Part shown: piece after piece, positions 8,269 through 61,350 of the stretch | Position numbering within the stretch: position 1 is the first letter of the stretch | How the letters are laid out: each line of letters opens with the position of its first letter | Assembly (NCBI RefSeq): GCF_002286975.1 | Contig: NZ_NSKB01000003.1 | Location: 248,001 to 312,000, forward strand | DNA length: 64,000 bases | Reading direction: 5' to 3' | From: Halomonas salipaludis | Lineage (GTDB): Bacteria > Pseudomonadota > Gammaproteobacteria > Pseudomonadales > Halomonadaceae | Notes under the pieces: model-generated | What the model saw: only the letters and a program-made list of their open reading frames with translations | Database searches by the model: none | What the model was told of the DNA's origin: nothing | Position numbers and translations under genes: made by a program

Positions 8269-8994
8269 TCAGTCGGACTGGCCACGATAGTGGCGGTCCC
8301 ACATCAGTACCGCGCCGGCCACGGCGCCGGGCAGCAGCAGCAGGTTGGCCAGTGGCAGCCAGGTGATCAGCGTCACCAGGCCACCGTAGCTGAGCGTCGG
8401 CCAGGGACGCGCCCTGAGCCGGCGGCGCATGTCAGCGAAGGTGACCTTGTTGTTATCCATCGGGTAGTCGAGGTAGGTGATCGCCATCACCCAGGCCGAG
8501 AAGGCCGCCCACAGCAGCGGCGCCAGCACATTGAGCGCCGGAATCCAGCTGATCACCAGCAGCAGCGTCAGCCGCGGCAGGATATACGCCAGCTTGACCA
8601 GTTCGCGGCCCAGTGCATCGACGCCGGTGCGCAGCAGGCCACGATCGTCGAGGGGCTGACGCTGGCAGGCGACCACCTCCACCCTGGCGGCGAGAAAGCC
8701 GTAGAAGGGGGCGGCGATCAGGTGGGTGATCAGGGTAAAGGTGAAGAACACCATCAGCACCAGAGTCACCACGAACAGCGGCCAGATCAGCCACTCCAGC
8801 CAGGCCAGCCAGCCAGGCACCATGGCCATCCAGCCCGCCAGCCAACCGCCGAAGTGGCTGAGCACATAGTACAGCATGGCGGCATAGACCAGCAGGTTGA
8901 CCGCCAGCGGCACGAACACATAGCGCCGCAGCCCCGGCGAGTAGACTAGCCGGGTGCCGCGGCTCAAGGCATCGAGAGCCGAGAGCGCTGCCAT
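8269..8994 (-). CDS. cysZ: CysZ-like sulfate transport/EI24 family membrane protein
   Basis: Inner-membrane protein of the CysZ/EI24 family, which moves sulfate for cysteine synthesis. The 241-aa protein has an N-terminal helix (VFVPLAVNLLVYAAMLYYVL), further hydrophobic segments at about 65-95, 140-175 and 200-225, and the family motif YLDYPMDNNKVTFADMR. Its ATG overlaps the phoU stop (TGATG), so it is translated with the phosphate operon, an unusual partner for a sulfate transporter. A longer upstream frame is ignored because it runs through phoU. Family assignment is good; the sulfate role is inferred. Confidence 0.88.
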   Translation of the reverse strand: MAALSALDALSRGTRLVYSPGLRRYVFVPLAVNLLVYAAMLYYVLSHFGGWLAGWMAMVPGWLAWLEWLIWPLFVVTLVLMVFFTFTLITHLIAAPFYGFLAARVEVVACQRQPLDDRGLLRTGVDALGRELVKLAYILPRLTLLLVISWIPALNVLAPLLWAAFSAWVMAITYLDYPMDNNKVTFADMRRRLRARPWPTLSYGGLVTLITWLPLANLLLLPGAVAGAVLMWDRHYRGQSD

Positions 8995-9722
8995 CAACCG
9001 CGCCGCTTGATCGCTTCTTCGTCGAGCTCGTCGGGATCGATATGACGAATATCCAGTCCCTTGACCAGATATACCACGTACTCGGCGAGGTTGTTGGCGT
9101 GATCGCCGATGCGTTCCAGGGCGCGCAGAATCCACATCACGCTGAGCACCGAGGAGATCGAGCGCGGATCCTCCATCATGAAGGTCATTAGCGAGCGCAT
9201 GGCGGTGGTGTACTCGCTGTCCACCGCCTCGTCCTCGTGCACCACCTCCAGGGCCAAGTCGATATCGAAGCGCGCGAACGCGGTCAGCGCATCGCGCACC
9301 ATCTTGCGCACGTGCTCGCTGATATGGCGCACCTCGATGAAGCCCTTGCTGCCGTTGCCGGCCTCGGCCAGGCTCATGGCGTTGCGGGCGATCTTGCTGG
9401 CCTCGTCGCCGATGCGCTCGAGATCCGAGGTGGCACGGATCACCGCCAGCACCAGGCGCAGGTCGGAGGCCGCCGGCTGGCGCCGCGCCAGCACCCGGGT
9501 GCATTCGTCGTCGATCTTGAGCTGCATGTCGTTGACCGCGTCATCGTTGTCGCGGACCCGCTCGGCCAGCCGGCTGTCGCCGTCGAGCAGCGCGGTGACG
9601 GCGTCCTGGACCTGCTTCTCGACCAGCCCGCCCATCGCCATCAGATGGGTCTTGAGCTCTTCGAGTTCCTGGTTGAACTGCTTGGAAATATGCTGACTGT
9701 GCGTATCGCTAGTGATATCCAT
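8994..9722 (-). CDS. phoU: phosphate signalling protein PhoU
   Basis: Cytoplasmic regulator linking PstSCAB to PhoR, needed to shut off the Pho regulon and restrain phosphate uptake. The 242 residues form two tandem three-helix PhoU repeats; matching metal-binding-type motifs are visible in each half (the ERIGDEASKIA and ERIGDHANNLAEYVVYL segments). Length matches the family. A GGAGAG site precedes the start at 9722. It lies 37 bases downstream of pstB and overlaps cysZ by one base, so it belongs to the pst operon. Confidence 0.95.
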   Translation of the reverse strand: MDITSDTHSQHISKQFNQELEELKTHLMAMGGLVEKQVQDAVTALLDGDSRLAERVRDNDDAVNDMQLKIDDECTRVLARRQPAASDLRLVLAVIRATSDLERIGDEASKIARNAMSLAEAGNGSKGFIEVRHISEHVRKMVRDALTAFARFDIDLALEVVHEDEAVDSEYTTAMRSLMTFMMEDPRSISSVLSVMWILRALERIGDHANNLAEYVVYLVKGLDIRHIDPDELDEEAIKRRG

Positions 9723-9759
9723 GCTGACTCTCCTGTTCGGCAGCGGCGGGAGCCTCGGC

Positions 9760-10581
9760 TCAGGCCATGCGGCCGGTGATGTAGTTTTCGGTGCGCACCA
9801 GGCGCGGGTTGGTGAACAGTGCGTCGGTGGGCGCGTACTCGACCAGCTCGCCGCCGTGCAGGAAGGCGGTGTAGTCCGAGACCCGCGCCGCCTGCTGCAT
9901 GTTGTGGGTGACCAGCACCAGCGTCAGCTGCGATTTGAGGCTGCGGATCAGCTCCTCGATCTTCAGCGTCGAGATCGGGTCCAACGCCGATGCCGGTTCG
10001 TCGAGCAGCAGCACCTCGGGCTTGACCGCCAGGGTGCGGGCGATTACCAAGCGCTGCTGCTGACCGCCGGACAGCGACCAGGCCGAGGCACCGAGGCGCT
10101 CCTTGACCTCATCCCACAGCGCCGCCGAACGTAGCGCCCACTCCACCACCTCATCGCGCTGGCGCTTACGCAGGCCGCCCTGCAGGCGCAGGCCAAAGGC
10201 GACGTTCTCGTAGATCGACATCGGGAAGGGGTTGGGGGTCTGGAAGACCATCCCCACCCGCCGCCGCAACTCGGCCACCGCCACCTCGGGGGCGTGAATC
10301 TCCTGGCCCTCGAGGCGGATCGCGCCGCGCCGGCTGACCGTCTCGTTGAGATCGTGCAGCCGGTTCAGCGCGCGCAGCAGCGTCGACTTGCCACAGCCCG
10401 ACGGCCCGATAAAGGCCGTAACCCGATGCCGCGGCACGCGCAGCGTGAGATCGCTGAGCGCCGGAGTACCGGCATAGGCCAGGCTCAACCCCTGGATTTC
10501 CAGACAGCTGGCGCCAGGATCGATGTCGATCACCGCGTCACGGCTGGCGTTAGCGGCCGGGGTATCGGGTTGCGCAAGCAC
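9760..10581 (-). CDS. pstB: phosphate ABC transporter ATP-binding protein PstB
   Basis: ATPase of the high-affinity phosphate importer. The 273 residues include Walker A (GPSGCGKS), the PstB-typical [19 protein letters not shown] segment, the signature LSGGQQQR and Walker B LLLDEPAS; most PstB proteins have DEPTS here, so the Ala is a small deviation. The start is a GTG at 10581 with an AGGAGG site upstream that overlaps the pstA stop. Encoded between pstA and phoU in the conserved order. Confidence 0.95.
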
Positions 10582-53024: not shown

Positions 53025-53412
53025 CGATGTTGCATCGTTAATCGCCTGATTTGTGGCAATTATGTCGAAGTGTATCGACTCTGATACGTTGTCAACTGTG
53101 CTAACTCTCTGTGGAAAAAGAGCTTTTACTCTTATCCTCTATGTTCGGCGGTGAAGTGTAAACCTATTGAGTGTTTTGCCGCCGATTATAGCCCCCAAAG
53201 TTCCTATATCACCCTCATGACTCGCCTTGGCTGTCTCCCCATGGCCTTGATATCAAAGTATATTTCAAATTGTAAAGTTATGTGGCACATATCGTGCAGT
53301 TTGTTTATCGATCGCCAGGTTCGGCGTGCGATGGCATGTCCTGTGAGGCTCCTATCCACCCGGCCGCGTGATCACAGGAAACAATAAATCATGCATGGTA
53401 TGGAGAAGGATC
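53025..53412 (+). promoter_or_regulatory. 388-base regulatory region of the fibre operon
   Basis: AT-richer non-coding stretch between the kinase gene and the Gly-rich protein gene. It contains a good sigma-54 promoter at 53283-53298 and two palindromes that could bind activators: GTATC-GACTCT-GATAC at 53072-53087 (about 210 bases before the promoter, a usual enhancer distance) and TTGATATCAA at 53247-53256. A small open frame at 53151-53387 has no ribosome-binding site and spans the promoter, so I do not call it. Confidence 0.6.
53283..53298 (+). promoter_or_regulatory. sigma-54 (RpoN) -24/-12 promoter
   Basis: The sequence TGGCACATATCGTGCA has GG and GC exactly ten bases apart, and matches the RpoN consensus TGGCAC-N5-TTGCA except for G in place of the first T of TTGCA. 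Transcription would begin near 53310, giving a leader of about 100 bases before the Gly-rich protein gene. Two sigma-54 activator genes lie in the same cluster, which supports the assignment. Confidence 0.75.
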
Positions 53413-54579
53413 ATGAAATATTACGTGATTGCGGGAACATCAATGCTGGCATTGGCGATGGCAATTTCCACTGCACATGCCAACCCTAGCGCCGGTGTGG
53501 CTGACAAAGTGGATCAAGAGGTCAAGTCCACGGCGATGGCTGTGGGGGGAAATAGCGGTAATGCTAACGGTGGAGACGGTGGTGCCGGTGGTAGTGGCAG
53601 TAGCACCGCCAACTCCGGTGCGTTCAATGCTTTCGAGAAGATTGATGACGACGACAACGGCTTTAGCGCCAATAGCTCGGCTACCAGCGGTGCGGGTACC
53701 GGCGGTGCGGGCGGCATGGGTGGCGCGGGTGGTACCTCTGGCGCCGGTGGCGATGCCTGGGCGATGAGCGAATCCTACAACACCTCGACCAGCGTGATCG
53801 CTTTGCAGGAACTGCAGTCGACCGTTACCGGCTCACGTATTTATATCAATGCGGGTGATGGTGCAGTGGGTGCGGTAGGTGGTGACGGCGGCGATGCCCT
53901 TGCGGTAACCGCTGCACTGGGTCAAGGCGGCAATGGCGGCAGTGGCTACGGCGGTGACGGTGGCGAAGCCGATGCCAATGCCGGTAACGGCGATGATGGC
54001 GGTGATGGTCTCGGCCTCGGTCTCGGCCTCGGTCTCGGCGCCGGGCAGGGTGGAAACGGCAACGCCAAGAATGACGACACCTCGGCAGCCGGTGGCACCG
54101 CGCTGGGACTCGCGGCCAATATTGCCGACGACTTCGAGGACGACAATACCAACACTGCAACCAATGGAGACACCAGTAATGGTGACGCCATGGCCAGTGC
54201 TGCGGTTAATGGCGGCACCGGTGGCGCAGGATCAGGTAGTGGCACCGGCAGCGGCACCGGCAGCGGTACCGGTGGTGCAGGGGGCAGCGGTGGCGATGCC
54301 TTGGCCCAGGGCGGTGCGGGTGGTAATGGCAACGGTGGCGGCGGTGGTGGTGCAACCTCCACCAGCGGCGATGCCATGGCCCAGGCCGGCAGCGGTGGCA
54401 ACGGCGGCAACGGCGGCAATGGCGGTGCAGCCAGCCTGGTTACCGGTACTGCGAGCATGGCAGCAGGCGCCGGCACCTTTGGCGGGATCGCCAACATGAA
54501 CCTGTCGACCGGGATCTACAACTCCCAGCTGGCAGCCACCAACGTTGCAGCCCACAGCAACGTGAATATCGGCAACTGA
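53413..54579 (+). CDS. exported Gly/Asn/Ala-rich repeat protein, candidate fibre (amyloid-like) subunit
   Basis: 388-aa secreted protein of unknown family. ATG 53413 has a strong GGAGAAGG site; an in-frame start 45 bases upstream does not. A signal peptide (KYYVIAGTSMLALAMAISTAHA) is followed by a low-complexity body: Gly-rich runs alternate with short acidic patches (FEKIDDDDNGF, ADDFEDDNTN) and with recurring GDAxA blocks (GGDAWAMSES, GGDALAVTAA, SNGDAMASAA, GGDALAQGG, SGDAMAQAG). There is no cysteine in the mature part. The last 31 residues contain GIANMNLSTGIYN, matched in the next gene product. It is the first gene after the sigma-54 promoter. Fibre function is inferred from composition and neighbours; a cell-surface adhesin or matrix protein is the alternative. 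Confidence 0.75.
   Translation: MKYYVIAGTSMLALAMAISTAHANPSAGVADKVDQEVKSTAMAVGGNSGNANGGDGGAGGSGSSTANSGAFNAFEKIDDDDNGFSANSSATSGAGTGGAGGMGGAGGTSGAGGDAWAMSESYNTSTSVIALQELQSTVTGSRIYINAGDGAVGAVGGDGGDALAVTAALGQGGNGGSGYGGDGGEADANAGNGDDGGDGLGLGLGLGLGAGQGGNGNAKNDDTSAAGGTALGLAANIADDFEDDNTNTATNGDTSNGDAMASAAVNGGTGGAGSGSGTGSGTGSGTGGAGGSGGDALAQGGAGGNGNGGGGGGATSTSGDAMAQAGSGGNGGNGGNGGAASLVTGTASMAAGAGTFGGIANMNLSTGIYNSQLAATNVAAHSNVNIGN
54007..54039 (+). repeat. 12-base tandem repeat inside the Gly-rich gene
   Basis: GGTCTCGGCCTC occurs twice and then partly a third time, encoding a Gly-Leu dipeptide run. Repeats of this kind can gain or lose units in frame. Confidence 0.85.
54241..54275 (+). repeat. second 12-base tandem repeat inside the Gly-rich gene
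   Basis: GGCACCGGCAGC is present twice in tandem (54241-54264), followed by a degenerate third copy and preceded by a partial one. It encodes GTGSGTGS. Confidence 0.8.
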
Positions 54580-54590
54580 GTGCGTCCGAT

Positions 54591-54617
54591 GGGCTGGCGG
54601 CTATCCGTCGCCAGCCC
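54591..54617 (+). terminator. intercistronic hairpin after the Gly-rich gene (possible attenuator)
   Basis: GGGCTGGCG and CGCCAGCCC form a perfect nine-base stem around a nine-base loop, followed by CTTCTCGTT. It starts 12 bases after the stop of the Gly-rich gene and ends 30 bases before the next start. A partial terminator or mRNA-stabilising hairpin here would make the first gene product in excess of the downstream ones. Confidence 0.6.
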
Positions 54618-54647
54618 CTTCTCGTTGCCATGCATTGGAGGGGTGTC

Positions 54648-55034
54648 ATGAAATACTACCGCTCACTGTTAGCACCTTGCCTGGGGGCTGCCCTGCTTGT
54701 GACAGGGGTCTGGGCACTGGCGGATGGTACGCCAGCCATCGCACCGTCAAGCGACGGCTTTGCGGCCTTCGAAACCCTCGAGGAGCAGGAGCTGGACCAC
54801 CTCTATGGGCGTGAAGGCGGCTTCAATCTGGTTAATGTACAGAGCATTCAGCATCTTGATGCGGCGGTGACCGGGGCTTCGTTTACCGCCGGCACCATCG
54901 TTAGCGGCAATGTCGTGATCGAAAACCGGGCGCTGGACAATTTTTCCGGTATCGGGCTATTCAATATCATGACCGGCCACAGCAACGCCGTGAGCACGGG
55001 CGTCAATATCAGCGTCTACGCCCCGACACAGTAA
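54648..55034 (+). CDS. small exported protein with double-Gly motif, possible minor subunit or nucleator
   Basis: 128-aa protein of no recognised family. ATG 54648 follows GGAGGGG and gives an N-terminus beginning MKYY like the preceding protein. A signal peptide (to about WALA, residue 25) is followed by a leader-like helix FETLEEQELDHLYGREGGF (Gly57-Gly58-Phe59), which resembles double-glycine processing sites. The rest is hydrophobic/polar alternating and Asn-rich, with GIGLFNIMTGHSN at 101-113, similar to the end of the Gly-rich protein. The next gene encodes a C39 peptidase that could cleave after the Gly pair. Function inferred: minor fibre component or nucleator. Confidence 0.65.
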   Translation: MKYYRSLLAPCLGAALLVTGVWALADGTPAIAPSSDGFAAFETLEEQELDHLYGREGGFNLVNVQSIQHLDAAVTGASFTAGTIVSGNVVIENRALDNFSGIGLFNIMTGHSNAVSTGVNISVYAPTQ

Positions 55035-55056
55035 CTCGCAGAGCGGGGAGTACGTC

Positions 55057-55758
55057 ATGCAGCGAACCATGCTACGTCAGTTTGCCCTGCTGCTGCTGTG
55101 CGTGTGGCCTGGGATGATGGCCGTGGCCGGCAGCGTACATATTCAGGGTCCTTTCGGCAGCGTCAATGTGCCCGCCCGCAGCCTGGAGGCAATGCGCTGG
55201 GATCGTGTGATTCCCCAGCAGTACGACTACAGCTGCGGCGCCGCCGCCGTGGCCACCCTGCTGACCTTTCATTATGAGCGCCCGACGACGGAGGCCGAGG
55301 TGTTCGAGCAGATGATCGCCACGGGTGACGTCGAGCAGATCCAGGCTCAGGGTTTCTCCATGCTCGACATGAAGCGCTACCTCGATGGCCAGGGCCTTAA
55401 CGCGGATGGATTCAGGGTATCGCTCGAAGATCTGGCGCGAATCGGCGTGCCGGCGATCACCTTGATCAACACCGGTGGCTATCGCCACTTCGTGGTGGTC
55501 AAGGGCATTGACGAAAACAACATCGTCGTGGCGGATCCCGCAGTAGGCACGGTAATCGTGCCTACCGCGCACTTCGCCAAGCTGTGGAGCGGTACTGTGC
55601 TCGGGGCACGCGCCGACATGCTGCTGGCCCAGCAGAACTTCAACCATGACCGTGACTGGCGGCTCCGAGCCAGGGCACCCAAGGAGCAGGCTATCAGGCG
55701 CATGCCGATGTCCAGCCTGATCCTCAATCTTCCAGCCCACAATGAGATGGGGCGATGA
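55057..55758 (+). CDS. stand-alone periplasmic C39 family cysteine peptidase (FapD-like)
   Basis: 233-aa exported peptidase. After a signal peptide (LRQFALLLLCVWPGMMAVAG) come the C39 elements: Q54 and C60 in QQYDYSCGAAAVATLL, H144 in GYRHFVVVKG and D160 in VVADPAVG. This is the catalytic triad and oxyanion Gln of bacteriocin-exporter peptidase domains, but no ABC or membrane-transporter domain follows, as in FapD of the Pseudomonas Fap system. Family C39 enzymes cut after Gly-Gly; candidate substrates flank it. It overlaps the next gene by four bases (ATGA). Confidence 0.88.
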   Translation: MQRTMLRQFALLLLCVWPGMMAVAGSVHIQGPFGSVNVPARSLEAMRWDRVIPQQYDYSCGAAAVATLLTFHYERPTTEAEVFEQMIATGDVEQIQAQGFSMLDMKRYLDGQGLNADGFRVSLEDLARIGVPAITLINTGGYRHFVVVKGIDENNIVVADPAVGTVIVPTAHFAKLWSGTVLGARADMLLAQQNFNHDRDWRLRARAPKEQAIRRMPMSSLILNLPAHNEMGR

Positions 55759-56441
55759 CCATGATTGATGCCACTCTGCCCATGTATCGCACCACACATT
55801 GCCGCTGGTTGAAGATGCTACTGATGGGGTGCTGGCTGTTTCCGGCAGGCGCTGTGCAGTCGGCGGGTTTCTATGCTGCCATCGATGTTGGCACTAATGT
55901 GTCGATGTCGCGAGAAGCAGCGATGACTGGAGATTCCCGGTTCTTCGCCGAGACCGCAGTGATCGATGACGAAAGCCTGGATATGTTGCGCGGTGGTTTT
56001 ACCGTGTCGGGGATGGATCTCAACTTCGGTGCCACACTCAAGACACGGATCGACAGCATGCAGCTCGAATCAACGGTCAGGATCGATCGACTCGGTGCGC
56101 AGCTGACCTCTCAGCGACTGAATGGCATGGAGGTGGCTGCCTTGCCGGCTGAGTTTCAGGCAATGGTGGTCAATGGCGGTGGTGCGATCAACGACATGGC
56201 GCCTAGCTCGCTCAACCTGACCGGTCTGAAGGAGTACTCGGGACTGGCGTTGCATGACACCCAGGGGTTTACCGCCGCCCTTCACAATATTACTAAGCAG
56301 GCTATCGTCAGCGCCGTGGTCAGCGATGCCTCGCAGCGTAACGTCCAACAGACCATCGATATCAATATCAACGTTAAGAATATGCCGGCGCTTCAAGCGG
56401 CATCGCAGCGCCAGGCGATACTCAACTCGCTGGCACGTTGA
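55755..56441 (+). CDS. exported protein with LRGGF motif, FapE-position protein
   Basis: 228-aa protein without recognised family. A hydrophobic segment (LKMLLMGCWLFPAGAVQSA, about 19-37) acts as a signal peptide. Residues 70-82 read IDDESLDMLRGGF, a second leader-like motif ending in Gly-Gly-Phe (80-82). The remainder alternates polar and hydrophobic residues (beta-strand-like) with a C-terminal stretch QTIDININVKNMPALQ. Translation is coupled to the peptidase (ATGA). It occupies the position of fapE in a Fap operon, but it lacks cysteines outside the signal region and I cannot claim homology. It ends at a strong terminator. Confidence 0.65.
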   Translation: MTMIDATLPMYRTTHCRWLKMLLMGCWLFPAGAVQSAGFYAAIDVGTNVSMSREAAMTGDSRFFAETAVIDDESLDMLRGGFTVSGMDLNFGATLKTRIDSMQLESTVRIDRLGAQLTSQRLNGMEVAALPAEFQAMVVNGGGAINDMAPSSLNLTGLKEYSGLALHDTQGFTAALHNITKQAIVSAVVSDASQRNVQQTIDININVKNMPALQAASQRQAILNSLAR

Positions 56442-56446
56442 TGCTG

Positions 56447-56481
56447 ACGAGAGGTTAGCGTAGTCATCGCTAACCTCTCGT
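56447..56481. terminator. bidirectional terminator between fibre operon and outer-membrane gene
   Basis: ACGAGAGGTTAGCG and its exact reverse complement at 56468-56481 form a 14-base stem around a seven-base loop. It lies between convergent genes with stops at 56441 (plus) and 56496 (minus), and can serve both. Confidence 0.85.
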
Positions 56482-56495
56482 TATCCCAGCTTTAA

Positions 56496-57569
56496 TCAAT
56501 ACATTCCCATCCTGAATGGCACGCGCAGCGTTATCACGGTATCCGGTGCATCGTCTGTCACACCGAGCTCGAGCCCCAGGTTGACGGATACGTCTGGCTT
56601 GAGTTGGTACGACCAGCCCAGGAGCAGCGATCCAATATTGAGGCTACGTGAACTCTGGGTGCTGGAGTTGCCATTGGCGCCGAGGAATTCCGTTTTGGTC
56701 TTGTCAATAAAGTCATGCTTATAGCCAAGACTGAATGATGCGCGCTCATTGATGGCGTACCCCATGCCGAAGCTGACTCTAATCGCATCACCAGGGTCCA
56801 CGTCGCCGATAGTGATATCGTCATTGATTCGCTTGTTGATGCTCTCTTTTTTTGTGTACATATAGCCGAGGTTGGCAAAGAATACGGCTGGGTCGGAAGG
56901 ATAGAGAGCTGTAATGCTTGGCTCCAGCGAGTGGAATCCTGAGCCAGTCGCCAATTCTCTTTCTATCCCATCACTATCACGGCGAATATCGAAGGGGCCT
57001 TCGCCGGTGGTCGTCTTGTAGCGTAGATTGGCAATCAGGTATGGCCAGTTGTTTTGTCCGCGGTTGAGCTGATAGCGTGCCGCCAGCTCGATATCGCCTA
57101 GTCCGTTGCCCGATAAGTCCCGGTCGATGTCGAACTGGCCGGCTTCACTCCCCTCCACCGTTGGTACGGTGGCGAACAGGGTATCGCTTCGATAGACGTA
57201 GGGCACCTTGGCTTCCAGCTCCAGGCGATCCGTCACTCCCAATCGACCGGTCACGGCTGCAGTCCAGGTATCGCGATTTGCCTCCTCGGCCGTGAACACG
57301 CCGATCAGCAGCGTGCTGAGAATTTCGATGCCCTGAAAGGTCAGGCGATTGACCCCGGCATGCGAGTATTGCAGCGATGGCTCTATGACCAACTGCCCAC
57401 GCGGGGTGAGTACACCCGCGTACTCGGTGATGGCCTGTACATCAGGCTGGTTGATGGCATCGGGAGGCGCTTGTCCCACCGGCTCCTGCTGGGCGTGAAC
57501 CAGCTGTGCGGTTAGCATCGACACCGTCAAAGGTAGCGGAGCGATGAACTTCAATACGCTTTTGTTCAT
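56496..57569 (-). CDS. outer-membrane beta-barrel protein, FapF / phenol-MetA-like family
   Basis: Predicted outer-membrane porin. ATG 57569 after GGGGAA gives 357 aa with a signal peptide ending at VHA (about residue 26). The mature part starts with a short Pro/Gln linker, then GVLTPRGQLVIEPSLQYSHAG, RDTWTAAVTGRLGVTDRLEL and EAKVPYVYRSD, patterns of PF13557-type transporter barrels, a group to which I believe FapF belongs. Many amphipathic strands follow, ending in the aromatic VPFRMGMY, a typical barrel C-terminus (Tyr). Unlike FapF it lacks an evident long coiled-coil N-terminus. It is convergent to the fibre genes and may be co-transcribed with the upstream sigma-54 activator. Confidence 0.8.
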   Translation of the reverse strand: MNKSVLKFIAPLPLTVSMLTAQLVHAQQEPVGQAPPDAINQPDVQAITEYAGVLTPRGQLVIEPSLQYSHAGVNRLTFQGIEILSTLLIGVFTAEEANRDTWTAAVTGRLGVTDRLELEAKVPYVYRSDTLFATVPTVEGSEAGQFDIDRDLSGNGLGDIELAARYQLNRGQNNWPYLIANLRYKTTTGEGPFDIRRDSDGIERELATGSGFHSLEPSITALYPSDPAVFFANLGYMYTKKESINKRINDDITIGDVDPGDAIRVSFGMGYAINERASFSLGYKHDFIDKTKTEFLGANGNSSTQSSRSLNIGSLLLGWSYQLKPDVSVNLGLELGVTDDAPDTVITLRVPFRMGMY

Positions 57570-57632
57570 TATCGAGTTCCCCATATTGAGATGGCCAGGC
57601 ATAGCATGTGGTTGAGGCTTATTATTCTGTTT

Positions 57633-58979
57633 TTACTCTCCTTTAATTATGTTGTGTTTTTTCGCCAGGCGATAGAATGTCACTCTTGAAACTCCCATCT
57701 CCTTGGCAGAACGCGCTATATTATTATCATTCTTGATGAGTGTGTTGATGATCAGTTGTCGTTCAGCAGCACCTCTAGCTTCATTAAGGGATGGTGGTGT
57801 GCTGTTTTCTAATGTATTGCATATACCCAAAGCATCAGGCATTATAAGATCACTGTCTGAAAGAACGATGGCGCTCTTTATCCTATTCAACATCTCTCTA
57901 ACATTACCCGGCCAATGATAGGATTTCATCAGTGCAATAGTATCGCGATGGAAACCTCTAGCCCGGCATGGATAGCGTGATGACAAATTTTCGAATACTT
58001 GATTGGCTAGCAACTCAATGTCGGCCTTGCGATGTCTCAGGGGCGGAAGGTGAATGACAACGGTGTTGAGGCGGTGCAACAGATCGAGACGGAAAGATCC
58101 GCGCTCGATTGCTGCGTCAAGATCAATGTGGGTGGCAGAAACTATTCGGACATCGACGGCTATTTCCTGACTGCTACTTAGTCGCTGAATACTATTCGAT
58201 TCTAGAAAGCGCAGAAGATTGACTTGGAGATTAACGTTCAAGTCGCCTATTTCATCAAGGAATAGCGTTCCACCAGATGCAGCCTCGATATGGCCGACTT
58301 GCTGGCTCGTCGCCCCAGTAAATGCCCCTTTTTCGTGCCCAAAAAGTTCTGATTGAATCAGGTCGTTGGAAAATCCACCACAGTTCACGGCGATGAATGG
58401 CCCCATGCAGCGACTCGATTGATCATGTATCGCTCGAGCAATCAGCTCCTTGCCAGTGCCTGACTCACCCAATATCATGACGGGGGCCTTGCTATTGGAC
58501 ACTCTATGAACAAGACGAAAAATGCGCTTGAATTCCGGCATGCAGCTCTTGAGTGTGATGCCGTCTACATGAATTGAATCAATGTTGTGGATAGTCTTTT
58601 TTATTGAAGCCTTTCGGTAAGCGTTGGCAAGCAATTCCCCTAGCAATGAGCTGTCTATAGGTAGTGAAAATACACCATCGAGCAGCCTGGCGATATGTGC
58701 GGTGCTTGGCCATTCTGCCTGTACATCAAGTACTACGCCTAGCCATATTATGCTCTTACTACAGATAAAATTTTCAAGATCCTTGAGTGGGATACTCTGC
58801 AGCTCTTGGATACAAAGAATACCGATACTGTCGAGACTCGAGAATAGCATGACATTATCGGCGGCATAGATGGAGTCATAGCACTCGGCCGACCAGCCTT
58901 GCGATCGTATGCTATCGACTAATATGGCCCGCTGTGCCATATCATCGGTTATCACTACCACACGCCTGGGGAGTGGCAT
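57633..58979 (-). CDS. sigma-54-dependent transcriptional activator 1 with degenerate receiver domain
   Basis: 448-aa bacterial enhancer-binding protein. The N-terminal 125 residues resemble a response-regulator fold but lack the usual acidic pocket and Lys. The AAA+ domain has Walker A GESGTGKE (171-178), the sigma-54 contact loop GAFTGA (218-223) and Walker [10 protein letters not shown]. The Fis-type helix-turn-helix is [21 protein letters not shown] near the C-terminus. It should activate RpoN promoters, most simply the one at 53283. The gene has low GC and rarely used codons compared with the core genes. It lies 63 bases upstream of the outer-membrane gene. Confidence 0.9.
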
Positions 58980-59251
58980 CCAGAACTCCTTTGATCGTTA
59001 CTATGCGTATGGATGAAAGGACGCTAACGCTGAGAGGCTCAACCCCTGTTAGACTGGATGCCGGCCCTGTTTTTGTAAAGTTATGTGATGCTATGTGGGT
59101 AATGGTTTTTACCACGATAATGGGCTAGGGAGTATAATCAGCATTATTTCATATGATATCTCGCTGCATAGGGATTAGATTCCTCGTATAGTATGCATTA
59201 CTTGGCGATAAAAAAATTCTAATGAAGCCTGTCTTTGGCTAGGAAAAATGC
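58980..59251. other. AT-rich gap between the two activator genes
   Basis: 272 bases, visibly AT-rich, separating the second activator's stop from the first activator's start. It probably carries a promoter for activator 1 (minus strand). I see no sigma-54 element with ten-base GG/GC spacing on that strand, and no good hairpin. Confidence 0.4.
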
Positions 59252-60625
59252 TTATTTAAAATAATGTATGTATGGGAGTCGGGAGTATTTCAAACCATGC
59301 TTTTCCATTAGGCGATATAGTGTACCTTTGGATATCATAAGTTCACTGGCAACGCTGACTAAGTCATAAGAGTGATTATCCAGGGACTCTCGCAGAGCCA
59401 GGAATTCCGCTTGATTTCTGACCAGCTCCAATGAGGTGATATACCGCCCGTGATGACGTCTATCGAGTCCCATGTCGGCAGGCATCAGCAACGGGGAGTC
59501 GCTGTATAGCATGGCTTGTCGTATACGGTTGCTAAGTTCACGTATATTGCCGGGCCAAGTGTGAGAGCGCATGATATCGAAAGTTTCTTGACTAATTCCT
59601 TTAAGTTTACAAGAACCTTCCTCGCGGTATTTGTTAAAAAAGAATTCCGCCAATGGTCCGATATCCGATATTCGTTCGCGAAGCGGAGGTAGGGAAATTT
59701 CAAGCACGTTGAGGCGATGGTAGAGGTCATTGCGAAACGTCTTGGCAGCAACGGCTTGACGCAAGTCGACATGGGTAGCTGCGATGATTCTCACGTCTAC
59801 GAAAAAATCTTTACGGCCCCCCACTCGCATCATTCGCTGATTTTCGAGGAAGCGCAACAGATTGGCTTGTATGGCAAGTGGAAGGTCCCCGATTTCATCG
59901 AGGAACAGTGTGCCGTCTGACGCTGCTTCGATATATCCCTTGCGCTGCTGGTGGGCACCCGTGAAGGCGCCCTTTTCACAGCCATATAGCTCTGACTGTG
60001 CAAGTCCCTCGGGCATGGCACCGCAGTTTACCGCCACGAAGGGAGCATGAGATCGCGCCGAGGATTCGTGTATCGCTCTTGCCGCCAGTTCCTTACCAGT
60101 CCCTGTTTCACCATGAATTAGCACTGGTGCGTCGACATTGGCAAAGCGTGCTATCCTTTCGAAGAGGTTTCCGGTCGTCCGCGGGCTGCCGATCATTTTA
60201 ACCCTGTCCTCATCTACCCTGAGCGGCTTGTTGCCTTGCCATTCATACAGCTTGTCGAGATTGAAAAGCAGGTTGTGAACTTCTGCGATGGAGCACGGCA
60301 AGGTGGTATAGCCGTGGCAAAATTGATCCAGCATACAGTTGATGGTGGTATTGGTCTTTAGCTCTACATTATCTAATACCGCCATCCAGTATAGAGATGA
60401 TCCAGATAGTATATGCCTTAATTCTAAGGCTTTTTGTTGCTTTAAAGAAGCCTGCTGATCGATCAGGACTAGACCGACTCGTAGAGGTTCGTTTTCGACA
60501 CTTTTCGTTTTTTCAAAAGCACTGTATGGATATGGCACCCAGCCGTAATTGAAGGATAATTTTTCTATGATCTCAGTAAAGCCTACGCCCTGCCCAAGAG
60601 TGGCAAGTGATTTATTGTTCACCAT
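59252..60625 (-). CDS. sigma-54-dependent transcriptional activator 2, VpsR-like
   Basis: 457-aa enhancer-binding protein; ATG 60625 follows a GGAGAAG site, while an in-frame ATG at 60658 would overlap the previous gene by four bases. The N-terminal 140 residues look like the degenerate receiver of VpsR-type biofilm regulators (VGLVLIDQQASLKQQ; CHGYTTLPCSIAEV). The AAA+ core has Walker A GETGTGKE (172-179) and GAFTGA (219-224), so sigma-54 contact is expected. The C-terminal helix-turn-helix is LVSVASELMISKGTLYRLMEK. Encoded just after the CsgD-like gene, probably in one transcript. Confidence 0.88.
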   Translation of the reverse strand: MVNNKSLATLGQGVGFTEIIEKLSFNYGWVPYPYSAFEKTKSVENEPLRVGLVLIDQQASLKQQKALELRHILSGSSLYWMAVLDNVELKTNTTINCMLDQFCHGYTTLPCSIAEVHNLLFNLDKLYEWQGNKPLRVDEDRVKMIGSPRTTGNLFERIARFANVDAPVLIHGETGTGKELAARAIHESSARSHAPFVAVNCGAMPEGLAQSELYGCEKGAFTGAHQQRKGYIEAASDGTLFLDEIGDLPLAIQANLLRFLENQRMMRVGGRKDFFVDVRIIAATHVDLRQAVAAKTFRNDLYHRLNVLEISLPPLRERISDIGPLAEFFFNKYREEGSCKLKGISQETFDIMRSHTWPGNIRELSNRIRQAMLYSDSPLLMPADMGLDRRHHGRYITSLELVRNQAEFLALRESLDNHSYDLVSVASELMISKGTLYRLMEKHGLKYSRLPYIHYFK

Positions 60626-60654
60626 TGTCGTCTTCTCCATATGGTATCGACGGT

Positions 60655-61350
60655 TCAATGATGGTTTCGCCGGCTATCTCCCCCCTTATTGCTCGATATC
60701 GGCAGTCTAGGTGTTGTGATCAGGTTCTTTTTCGCCCAGTTCATGGCTTGTATTCTGTTATGAACCTTGATCTTTCTGAATATATTGTAAATATGCGATT
60801 TTACGGTGTGTTCGCTGACGAACAGCTTCTCGGCAATCTCAAGGTTGGAGTCCCCCGATGCCAGTAAGCTGATAATTTCCATTTCACGTTGGGTCAGGCC
60901 ACATGCTGGACGGAAAATGCTGAGCTGTTGATGTCGATAAAAGTCGATAAGACGTGTCATCAATGAGCGTGACATCCAGAAGTCACCGGCAATCAAGGCG
61001 CCTATACCTTTGCAGATCAGGGTGATTGGATCGCTGCGGTAGAAAACGCCATGAATATGCAACATGCGCATGATATCCATGGCATGTTCTTCGTCCTTGA
61101 GGTTGAAGACCGACATGATTTTGGTTGGACTTTCCATGCAAGCTAGGTGCCATTCATGCATATCACTCTCATGGACGTGATCTGCATCAATCAATAATAC
61201 AGCTCTATCATCAGGCAGTTCTTGATGATGTGCATCGGGCGGTAGTGTGCTGACACTACACTCCACTTCATTATTGATATAGTCGACGAACAGTTGCGAC
61301 TGTGGGTTGGCGTCGGTGATAAGTATTACCATGGTGTGTTCGGAATCCAT
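60655..61350 (-). CDS. CsgD-like LuxR-family transcriptional regulator
   Basis: 231-aa regulator with an N-terminal pseudo-receiver (about 5-140) and a C-terminal LuxR/FixJ helix-turn-helix (148-212: CGLTQREMEIISLLASGDSN then LEIAEKLFVSEHTVKSHIYN). Similarity to CsgD, the curli and cellulose regulator, runs over both halves, including IHGVFYRSDPITLICKGIGAL beside CsgD's NGVFY region and the QAMNWAKKNL end. The ATG at 61350 has a GGGGAAGG site. It heads the minus-strand regulator genes. A direct role in controlling the fibre genes is inferred from position and family. Confidence 0.85.
   Translation of the reverse strand: MDSEHTMVILITDANPQSQLFVDYINNEVECSVSTLPPDAHHQELPDDRAVLLIDADHVHESDMHEWHLACMESPTKIMSVFNLKDEEHAMDIMRMLHIHGVFYRSDPITLICKGIGALIAGDFWMSRSLMTRLIDFYRHQQLSIFRPACGLTQREMEIISLLASGDSNLEIAEKLFVSEHTVKSHIYNIFRKIKVHNRIQAMNWAKKNLITTPRLPISSNKGGDSRRNHH

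Follow-up and report, generated by a model that had tools for sequence, protein, structure and literature searches.

The window analysed here, a stretch of 64,000 nucleotides from Halomonas salipaludis (contig NZ_NSKB01000003.1, positions 248,001 to 312,000, in a host genome of 5.48 Mb), carries between positions 53283 and 61350 a real, conserved gene system that is a sister of the Fap amyloid system with an exchanged main subunit. On the + strand, four exported proteins, referred to as SUB, SML, C39 peptidase and EXP4, are encoded in one operon (53413–56441); on the − strand, convergent to this operon, lie the genes for an outer-membrane barrel (BAR), two sigma-54 activators (S54a and S54b) and a LuxR-type regulator. 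A reading made earlier from the letters of the same DNA (the sequence-only reading) had placed eight genes here, all of which are present, and had described this arrangement of a four-gene exported operon facing a FapF-type barrel, two sigma-54 activators and a CsgD-like regulator. The arrangement is seen in the window, and the cassette recurs in 38/38 relatives. In our interpretation the locus encodes an export system, sister to Fap, whose cargo is a protein of an extracellular fibre or matrix and whose minor subunits would be trimmed by the periplasmic C39 peptidase; on the strength of the sequences, we give this reading a probability of roughly two in three. The system would work like Fap but is not Fap, judged by subunit repeats, FapA and the clade of the peptidase; that it forms fibres, that these are amyloid and that the peptidase cuts its substrates are predictions.

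Conservation was followed in 250 Halomonadaceae genomes, searched with the peptidase and, separately, with the last 62 residues of SUB. The peptidase matches in the family form two classes, a close one in 58 genomes (own included) with 58–100% identity and a distant one with 29–37%. The genomes holding the SUB tail are exactly the 58 of the close class, and 192 of the 250 have neither. Relatives of the 388-residue protein that always lack peptidase and barrel would have refuted the sequence-only reading; among the 250 genomes, every SUB tail is accompanied by a close-class peptidase (58/58). From the 57 other close-class loci, 38 were fetched, with SUB counted at E ≤ 1e-3. All 38 (one, from Halomonas socia, visibly damaged) contain SUB, SML, C39, EXP4 and the convergent barrel, plus a sigma-54 activator within the stretch, and recurrence of the gene set in other Halomonadaceae, proposed earlier as a check, is borne out by these complete cassettes. 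A CsgD-like gene lies within the fetched stretch in 23 of the 38. Ten named loci overlap with the same relatives and constitute no additional evidence; nine of them have the cassette with SUB, and at L173 (45% identical) only C39, barrel and activators are visible.

The peptidase and the barrel tie the locus to Fap. The C39 peptidase (55057–55758, + strand, 233 residues, with signal peptide) matches Pfam PF03412 with E = 1e-23, and its catalytic Cys, His and Asp (C60, H144 and D160 in the window) are intact in 101/101 aligned sequences. The profile searches against Fap families suggested by the sequence-only reading gave E = 8e-52 for C39 against FapD and 4e-52 for BAR against FapF. For both proteins the best NCBIfam models are FapD and FapF, although the curated cut-offs are missed (133 of 330 bits for FapD, 149 of 700 bits for FapF). 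The FapD score alone is not decisive, because the Fap loci of another member of the family (G020) likewise fall below the cut-off, at 284 bits. At 1e-15, the FapD model matches 36/274 genomes of the class.

BAR (56496–57602, − strand, 368 residues) had been described as a FapF/phenol-MetA-type barrel, and both names are reflected in its matches: it matches PF13557 (Phenol_MetA_deg) with E = 6e-8 and the NCBIfam FapF model with E = 2e-43, residues 49–363 aligning to model positions 101–418. Four sequences of the PDB match at E ≤ 0.01, all of them FapF (best 1e-29). The N-terminus of BAR is short and apparently without the FapF coiled-coil region; judged by eye, the FapF proteins of L037, L039 and L072 are also without a long N-terminus. 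Taken at its Pfam name, BAR would be a porin for hydrophobic compounds of the phenol MetA family that neighbours the operon by chance, an extremely improbable assignment given that the barrel is kept in 38/38 family relatives and in 9/9 class-II loci outside the family, and that its best matches are FapF.

In a midpoint-rooted tree of 76 peptidases, for which 14 of the 39 close rows were used, the present class and nine loci from other families form one clade (100/99) that is sister to the Fap clade (99/93); 21 other FapD-like peptidases fall outside both. These data bear directly on the notion of an ordinary Fap operon with merely diverged subunits. Such an operon would account for FapD and FapF as best matches of C39 and barrel, for the likeness of SML to the last FapB repeat, and for the retained order of subunit, C39 and FapE-like gene; a separate fapF, apart from the fap operon, is moreover known in some genera (PMC3792158). 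It does not account for a separate peptidase clade beside that of FapD, for genomes that carry Fap alongside the present system (e.g. L037, L039), for the absence of a SUB repeat or for the low FapD and FapF scores. FapA, for which one query was used, was found in 0/38 class-II loci vs 2/2 Fap-only loci in the same database; FapA is often missing even in Fap. The explanation is unlikely and, because of the separate clades and the presence of both systems within one genome, largely refuted. The sequence-only reading had proposed a Fap-related but distinct system, in good agreement with C39 and BAR being homologous to FapD and FapF, with the peptidase forming its own clade and with a SUB in which profiles detect no FapB/C repeat. 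The leader motif, the weak FapB-like repeat of SML, the likeness of EXP4 to FapE and the sigma-54 promoter go beyond what that reading had named.

Among loci of the distant class in the family, L072, L073 and 17/20 others fetched carry FapB-C-D-E-F in canonical order. One Halomonadaceae locus (L146) has two tandem sets of Fap genes. Many Fap loci (L072, L144–L157 and others) encode, upstream of FapB, a small exported protein that carries V-I-L-W-D-E together with a leader-like L-x-x-[IV]-R-G-[RK] site of its own; it is distinct from FapA and may be an unnamed Fap component.

In other members of the sister clade, peptidase and barrel are kept alongside a different subunit. The nine class-II loci of the clade that lie outside the family all have the barrel, convergent in 3/9 and codirectional in 6/9, and since only three show convergence this is mainly a trait of Halomonadaceae. 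By eye, seven of the nine show an SML-like gene, and five an EXP4-like gene in which LRGGF or MRGGF can be read. The main subunit can be named in six, is mostly Asn/Ser/Asp-rich and is Fap-repeat-like in one (L118), which matches the FapB profile at 2e-10, the sole such case among seven outside subunits tested. In a later-fetched locus outside the family (L187) the subunit is still Gly-rich and ends in the SUB tail, and L177 is a further locus of this kind, in another class of the phylum. At L185, the whole cassette of Asn/Ser/Asp-rich subunit, SML, C39 and EXP4 occurs twice in tandem.

A further line of evidence is a leader motif. EXP4 (55755–56441, + strand, 228 residues), whose frame overlaps that of the C39 peptidase, is an exported minor protein with a FapE-like leader block, and behind the signal peptides EXP4 and FapE have in common a bacteriocin-type leader, x-E-L-x-x-L-R-G-(G/R/K)-(F/Y). 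The double-glycine leader of the window, IDDESLDMLRGG, spans residues 70–81 (55962–55997), with a predicted C39 cut before F82. Across EXP4 rows the form is x-x-x-x-[LM]-x-x-[LM]-R-[GA]-G-F, with R79, G81 and F82 invariant in 18/18; the FapE proteins of Fap loci show the same form with the second G replaced by R or K. A strict motif core, [LMI]xx[LMIVAQ][RY][GA][GRK], occurs in EXP4 in 39/39 rows (0.9 expected by shuffling) and in FapE in 31/31 (1.1 expected); elsewhere in the same loci it is found in SUB 0/39, C39 0/39 and BAR 1/39, and in the Fap proteins FapB 0/33, FapC 1/34, FapD 5/36 and FapF 1/29. As the rows are related, these counts are not independent trials. The distance from leader to signal peptide differs widely between EXP4 rows. 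The FapE profile matches 5/39 EXP4 at E ≤ 0.1, and a transposase match of EXP4 (E 0.18, under cut-off) was dismissed as chance.

SML (54648–55034, + strand, 128 residues) is the other exported minor protein and combines a leader-like stretch, LEEQELDHLYGR (residues 44–55, 54777–54812; predicted C39 cut after R55), with one weak FapB-like repeat. The pattern [LM]x4[GA][RK]E[GN] is present in 39/39 SML. Profile comparison of SML rows from Halomonadaceae and other families with FapB gave E = 5e-5, the likeness being to the last FapB repeat, and within a set of 215 proteins the FapB profile picks up 22/39 SML at E ≤ 0.1, the best of them at 3.5e-5. The consensus of C39 double-glycine leaders is L-S-x-x-E-L-x-x-I-x-G-G before the mature part; EXP4 shows its core in 39/39 rows, SML more weakly (25/39).

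A leader of bacteriocin form also invites the view that the locus serves to export bacteriocins or signal peptides, with EXP4 and SML as the active peptides. This is very unlikely, as by eye both the substrates and the peptidase start with Sec-type signals, no ATP-binding cassette transporter is found among the eight genes, EXP4 is a large protein with conservation along all of it, and the regulators are of biofilm type.

Sixty leaders of FapE and EXP4 served to train a matrix, which was applied, at a threshold of 8 bits, to loci outside the training set. In class-II loci outside the family 8/25 near genes pass vs 0/26 distant ones, and in 19 later-fetched loci 6/34 near genes vs 0/19 distant ones, with the leader found in five loci; no distant gene in either set exceeds 6 bits. 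Several of the later-fetched loci list no exported same-strand gene within 3.5 kb. The top two scores, 28 and 31 bits, belong to FapE of L180 and L181, two loci with FapD above the curated cut-off (441 and 405 bits). The FapE of L180 itself reaches curated level, with 346 bits against a cut-off of 250. EXP4-like genes outside the training set reach 25–27 bits. In L182, a third curated-FapD locus, the FapE leader is visible by eye and the scripted scan found no peptidase frame. All three loci are probably from Pseudomonas.

A looser leader pattern, devised after viewing these sequences, recovers EXP4 in 21/37, SML in 20/39 and FapE in 28/29 cases and also matches FapB repeats (20/31). Near the peptidase it is present in 27/27 Fap loci (67/115 genes, 11.2 expected by shuffling), 5/9 class-II loci outside the family (9/25 genes, 2.7 expected) and 14/20 other FapD-like loci (20/52 genes, 4.9 expected). 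The controls gave 8/101 distant genes (8.1 expected), 0/20 other window genes (2.2) and 11/69 upstream flank genes (7.4). At L194 and L196, whose genomes belong to the same family as the loci with FapD at curated level, a C39 gene lies beside DUF6160/FilA-like proteins whose signal peptide is followed by a D-x-x-L-x-x-V-T-G-Q site.

SUB, the candidate main subunit (53413–54579, + strand, start ATG 53413, 388 residues), is exported and ends in a conserved tail, GTFGGIANMNLSTGIYNSQLAATNVAAHSNVNIGN. It had earlier been described as a Gly/Asn-rich repeat protein; over the 387 residues counted, Gly makes up 28%, Ala 17%, Ser 10% and Asn 9%, so that the protein is better called Gly/Ala-rich. Behind the signal peptide it contains 32 GGX triplets and 32 acidic vs 5 basic residues. 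Neither SUB nor SML nor EXP4 reaches a family cut-off in Pfam or NCBIfam, and a lanthipeptide-model match of SUB (E 0.033, under cut-off) was dismissed as chance. None of the FapB, FapC or repeat profiles match SUB and no Csg family match was obtained, consistent with the earlier statement that neither FapC nor CsgA repeats were recognised in it. Descent of the SUB tail from Fap repeats, plausible by eye, was unsupported by profile comparison and repeat profile and was set aside.

The composition of SUB leaves real, if less than even, room for a related interpretation that differs from ours only in the SUB product: the same machinery might export a non-amyloid Gly-rich surface protein, such as a polyglycine-type sheath, a glue or a hydrated coat. 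The glycine content, the GGX triplets, the excess of acidic residues, the absence of FapB/C repeats and the lack of a fold in AlphaFold predictions would suit such a product. Conversely, both the export machinery and the minor proteins resembling FapB and FapE are those of an amyloid system, and a relative within the clade (L118) has the Fap-repeat-like subunit described above.

Upstream of SUB, a sigma-54 promoter-like site, TGGCACATATCGTGCA, lies at 53283–53298 (+ strand), 130 bases 5′ of the SUB start, and is kept in relatives. A GG-N10-GC site is found within 400 bases 5′ of SUB in the window and the 38 relatives (39/39); it scores at least 9 of 11 in 34/39, lies at −95 to −196 in 38/39 and is better than single-base shuffles at P ≤ 0.05 in 31/39. 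S54a (57633–58979, − strand), just upstream of BAR, and S54b (59252–60658, − strand, start TTG 60658 or ATG 60640) both carry GAFTGA, as do 37/40 best-matching activators (one per locus, two Fap loci included). S54b has in addition a weak VpsR-like N-terminal domain (21.8 bits vs cut-off 23.7). The third regulator (60655–61350, − strand) contains a VpsT-like receiver (PF21155, 33.6 bits over the cut-off of 27) and has CsgD as best model (144 bits vs cut-off 250), in line with the CsgD/VpsR-type control claimed earlier, of which the VpsR part is weak. WMSR, at residues 125–128, is present in the window and in 22/23 relatives, the 23rd being truncated by the locus end, and fits W[FLM][TS]R, the VpsT-type motif for cyclic di-GMP (c-di-GMP). 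The VpsT-like receiver together with WMSR suggests that this regulator binds c-di-GMP. Vibrio VpsT depends on R134 to bind c-di-GMP (PMC3359988). CsgG was not found in the host genome by a search whose control detects it in 4/14 genomes, E. coli among them, and the CsgD-like regulator has therefore no curli to serve here. Within the VpsT/CsgD-like gene, at 61152 on the − strand, a further sigma-54 consensus match covers all 11 scored positions (TGGCACCTAGCTTGCA). Between the convergent units, a 13-bp inverted repeat noted by eye (56448–56480) is terminator-like in both directions.

In the proposed mechanism, SUB, SML, C39 and EXP4 would be transcribed from the one sigma-54 promoter by the neighbouring activators, probably at high c-di-GMP, a condition suggested by the VpsT/VpsR-like regulators. 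All four proteins would cross the inner membrane by Sec, after which the periplasmic C39 peptidase would cut SML and EXP4 at the bacteriocin-type leaders (in EXP4, LRG-G|F) that follow their signal peptides. Once trimmed, these two putative counterparts of FapB and FapE may exit via the FapF-type barrel and act as starters or anchors for the assembling Gly-rich SUB, the presumed counterpart of FapC; trimming of the two minor subunits would thereby license export of SUB through the barrel. Whether a general Sec-first, C39-second code exists is to our mind an even call. Under such a code FapD, the sister clade and perhaps FilB would read a leader behind the Sec signal of FapE, EXP4 and SML, and the cut would license barrel opening. 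Around a constant core for export and licensing, one type of fibre subunit would repeatedly have replaced another (Fap repeats, Asn/Ser/Asp-rich, Gly-rich), and surveys for FapB/C repeats would miss related fibre systems.

Several observations weigh against the proposed Fap-sister export system. The likeness of EXP4 to FapE is confined to a leader block of 32 columns (E = 6e-5 and a pairwise probability of 64%, with 0.53 for the column-shuffled control), and comparison without this block found no similarity (E 0.06). R or K at the second-G position of FapE is unusual for a C39 cut. The strict motif is present in only 25/39 SML, 2/7 outside SML and 5/6 outside EXP4 candidates, and of 398 genomes from the phylum the EXP4 profile matches only six, three belonging to Halomonadaceae. 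In 20 more distant FapD-like loci the leader matrix was not above background (1/52 near vs 2/27 distant genes), and because it did not confirm the leader there, generality beyond Fap and class II is a lead only. The SUB tail has no likeness to FapB/C repeats detectable by profile comparison (E 0.16–0.2), and AlphaFold modelling, with 8 rows for SUB and 9 for EXP4, was uninformative, the mean predicted local distance difference test being 30 and 42, respectively. The host genome contains two further C39-domain frames, neither of which matches the FapD model at 1e-15. Lastly, in the nearest named relative by peptidase, Halomonas socia CKY01 (L164; 100% identical), the SUB frame is broken and a transposase-bearing insertion lies ahead of EXP4; the cassette looks inactive and, for these two reasons, the system is dispensable in that strain. 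The inserted segment of L164, about 1.4 kb at roughly 8700–10140, separates C39 from a shortened EXP4, and its transposase is presumably ISL3-like.

The leader bears on a question posed for Fap itself. In Pseudomonas, where amyloid secretion cannot do without FapD, this peptidase is periplasmic and its catalytic Cys is required for FapC secretion (Rouse et al. 2017, PMC5557850). That study calls the FapD target unclear and describes the Fap proteins as without canonical C39 sequences. It suspects FapE, which has GG and GA motifs and alone among Fap proteins yielded no peptides in the first ~70 residues. A second paper likewise speaks of a target yet to be determined (PMC6173800). The FapE leader identified here ends at residues 46–72 in 23/26 pattern-matched rows (starts unrefined), a position compatible with the missing N-terminal peptides of PMC5557850, and may or may not coincide with the GG/GA site named there. 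A leader common to FapE and EXP4 names an exact candidate bond for FapD-type cleavage (LRG-R|Y in FapE) and with it a two-residue mutation target. That FapD and FapF relatives occur together in further phyla is already known (PMC6173800). A repeat-based survey required FapB/C repeats near other fap genes (PMC12822426) and would probably pass over the present locus for that reason. Titles and abstract starts, a scope with preprints and most subscription papers outside it, yielded no description of the system, and 'FapF' with 'Halomonas' returned 0 papers. Within this literature, a sister clade that keeps FapD/FapF-type machinery with a different main subunit is apparently undescribed. For materials research, too, a Gly-rich polymer secreted by a halophile could be of interest.

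Compared with known systems, the locus stands closest to Fap, with which it shares the periplasmic C39 peptidase, the outer-membrane barrel, a protein with FapE's leader encoded directly after the peptidase, the weak FapB-like repeat in SML and the order of subunit, C39 and FapE-like gene. It differs in its Gly-rich SUB, in the convergent barrel gene, in the separate peptidase clade and in the VpsR/VpsT-like regulators alongside. The imperfect FapB/C repeats, absent from SUB, almost always number three in Fap fibre subunits (PMC12822426). The Fil system (FilA, FilB, FilC; 'putative pilus system' in NCBIfam) likewise has a stand-alone C39 peptidase and a barrel, related to those described here through FilB (1e-32) and FilC (2e-24), and FilA/DUF6160-like neighbours of such peptidases have a leader of looser shape. 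This shape, however, is unrecognised by the FapE/EXP4 matrix, no FilA match was obtained, and the scores (FilB 113 of 475, FilC 87 of 630 bits) lie below those of FapD and FapF and well short of the respective cut-offs. Curli share the CsgD-like regulator, whereas the genome has no CsgG and SUB, SML and EXP4 no Csg family match. With Vibrio VpsR/VpsT biofilm control the locus has in common a protein of sigma-54-activator type whose VpsR domain is weak, and a VpsT-like receiver accompanied by WMSR; here, in contrast, the pair accompanies a candidate protein-fibre cassette, and both GAFTGA and a sigma-54 site are present.

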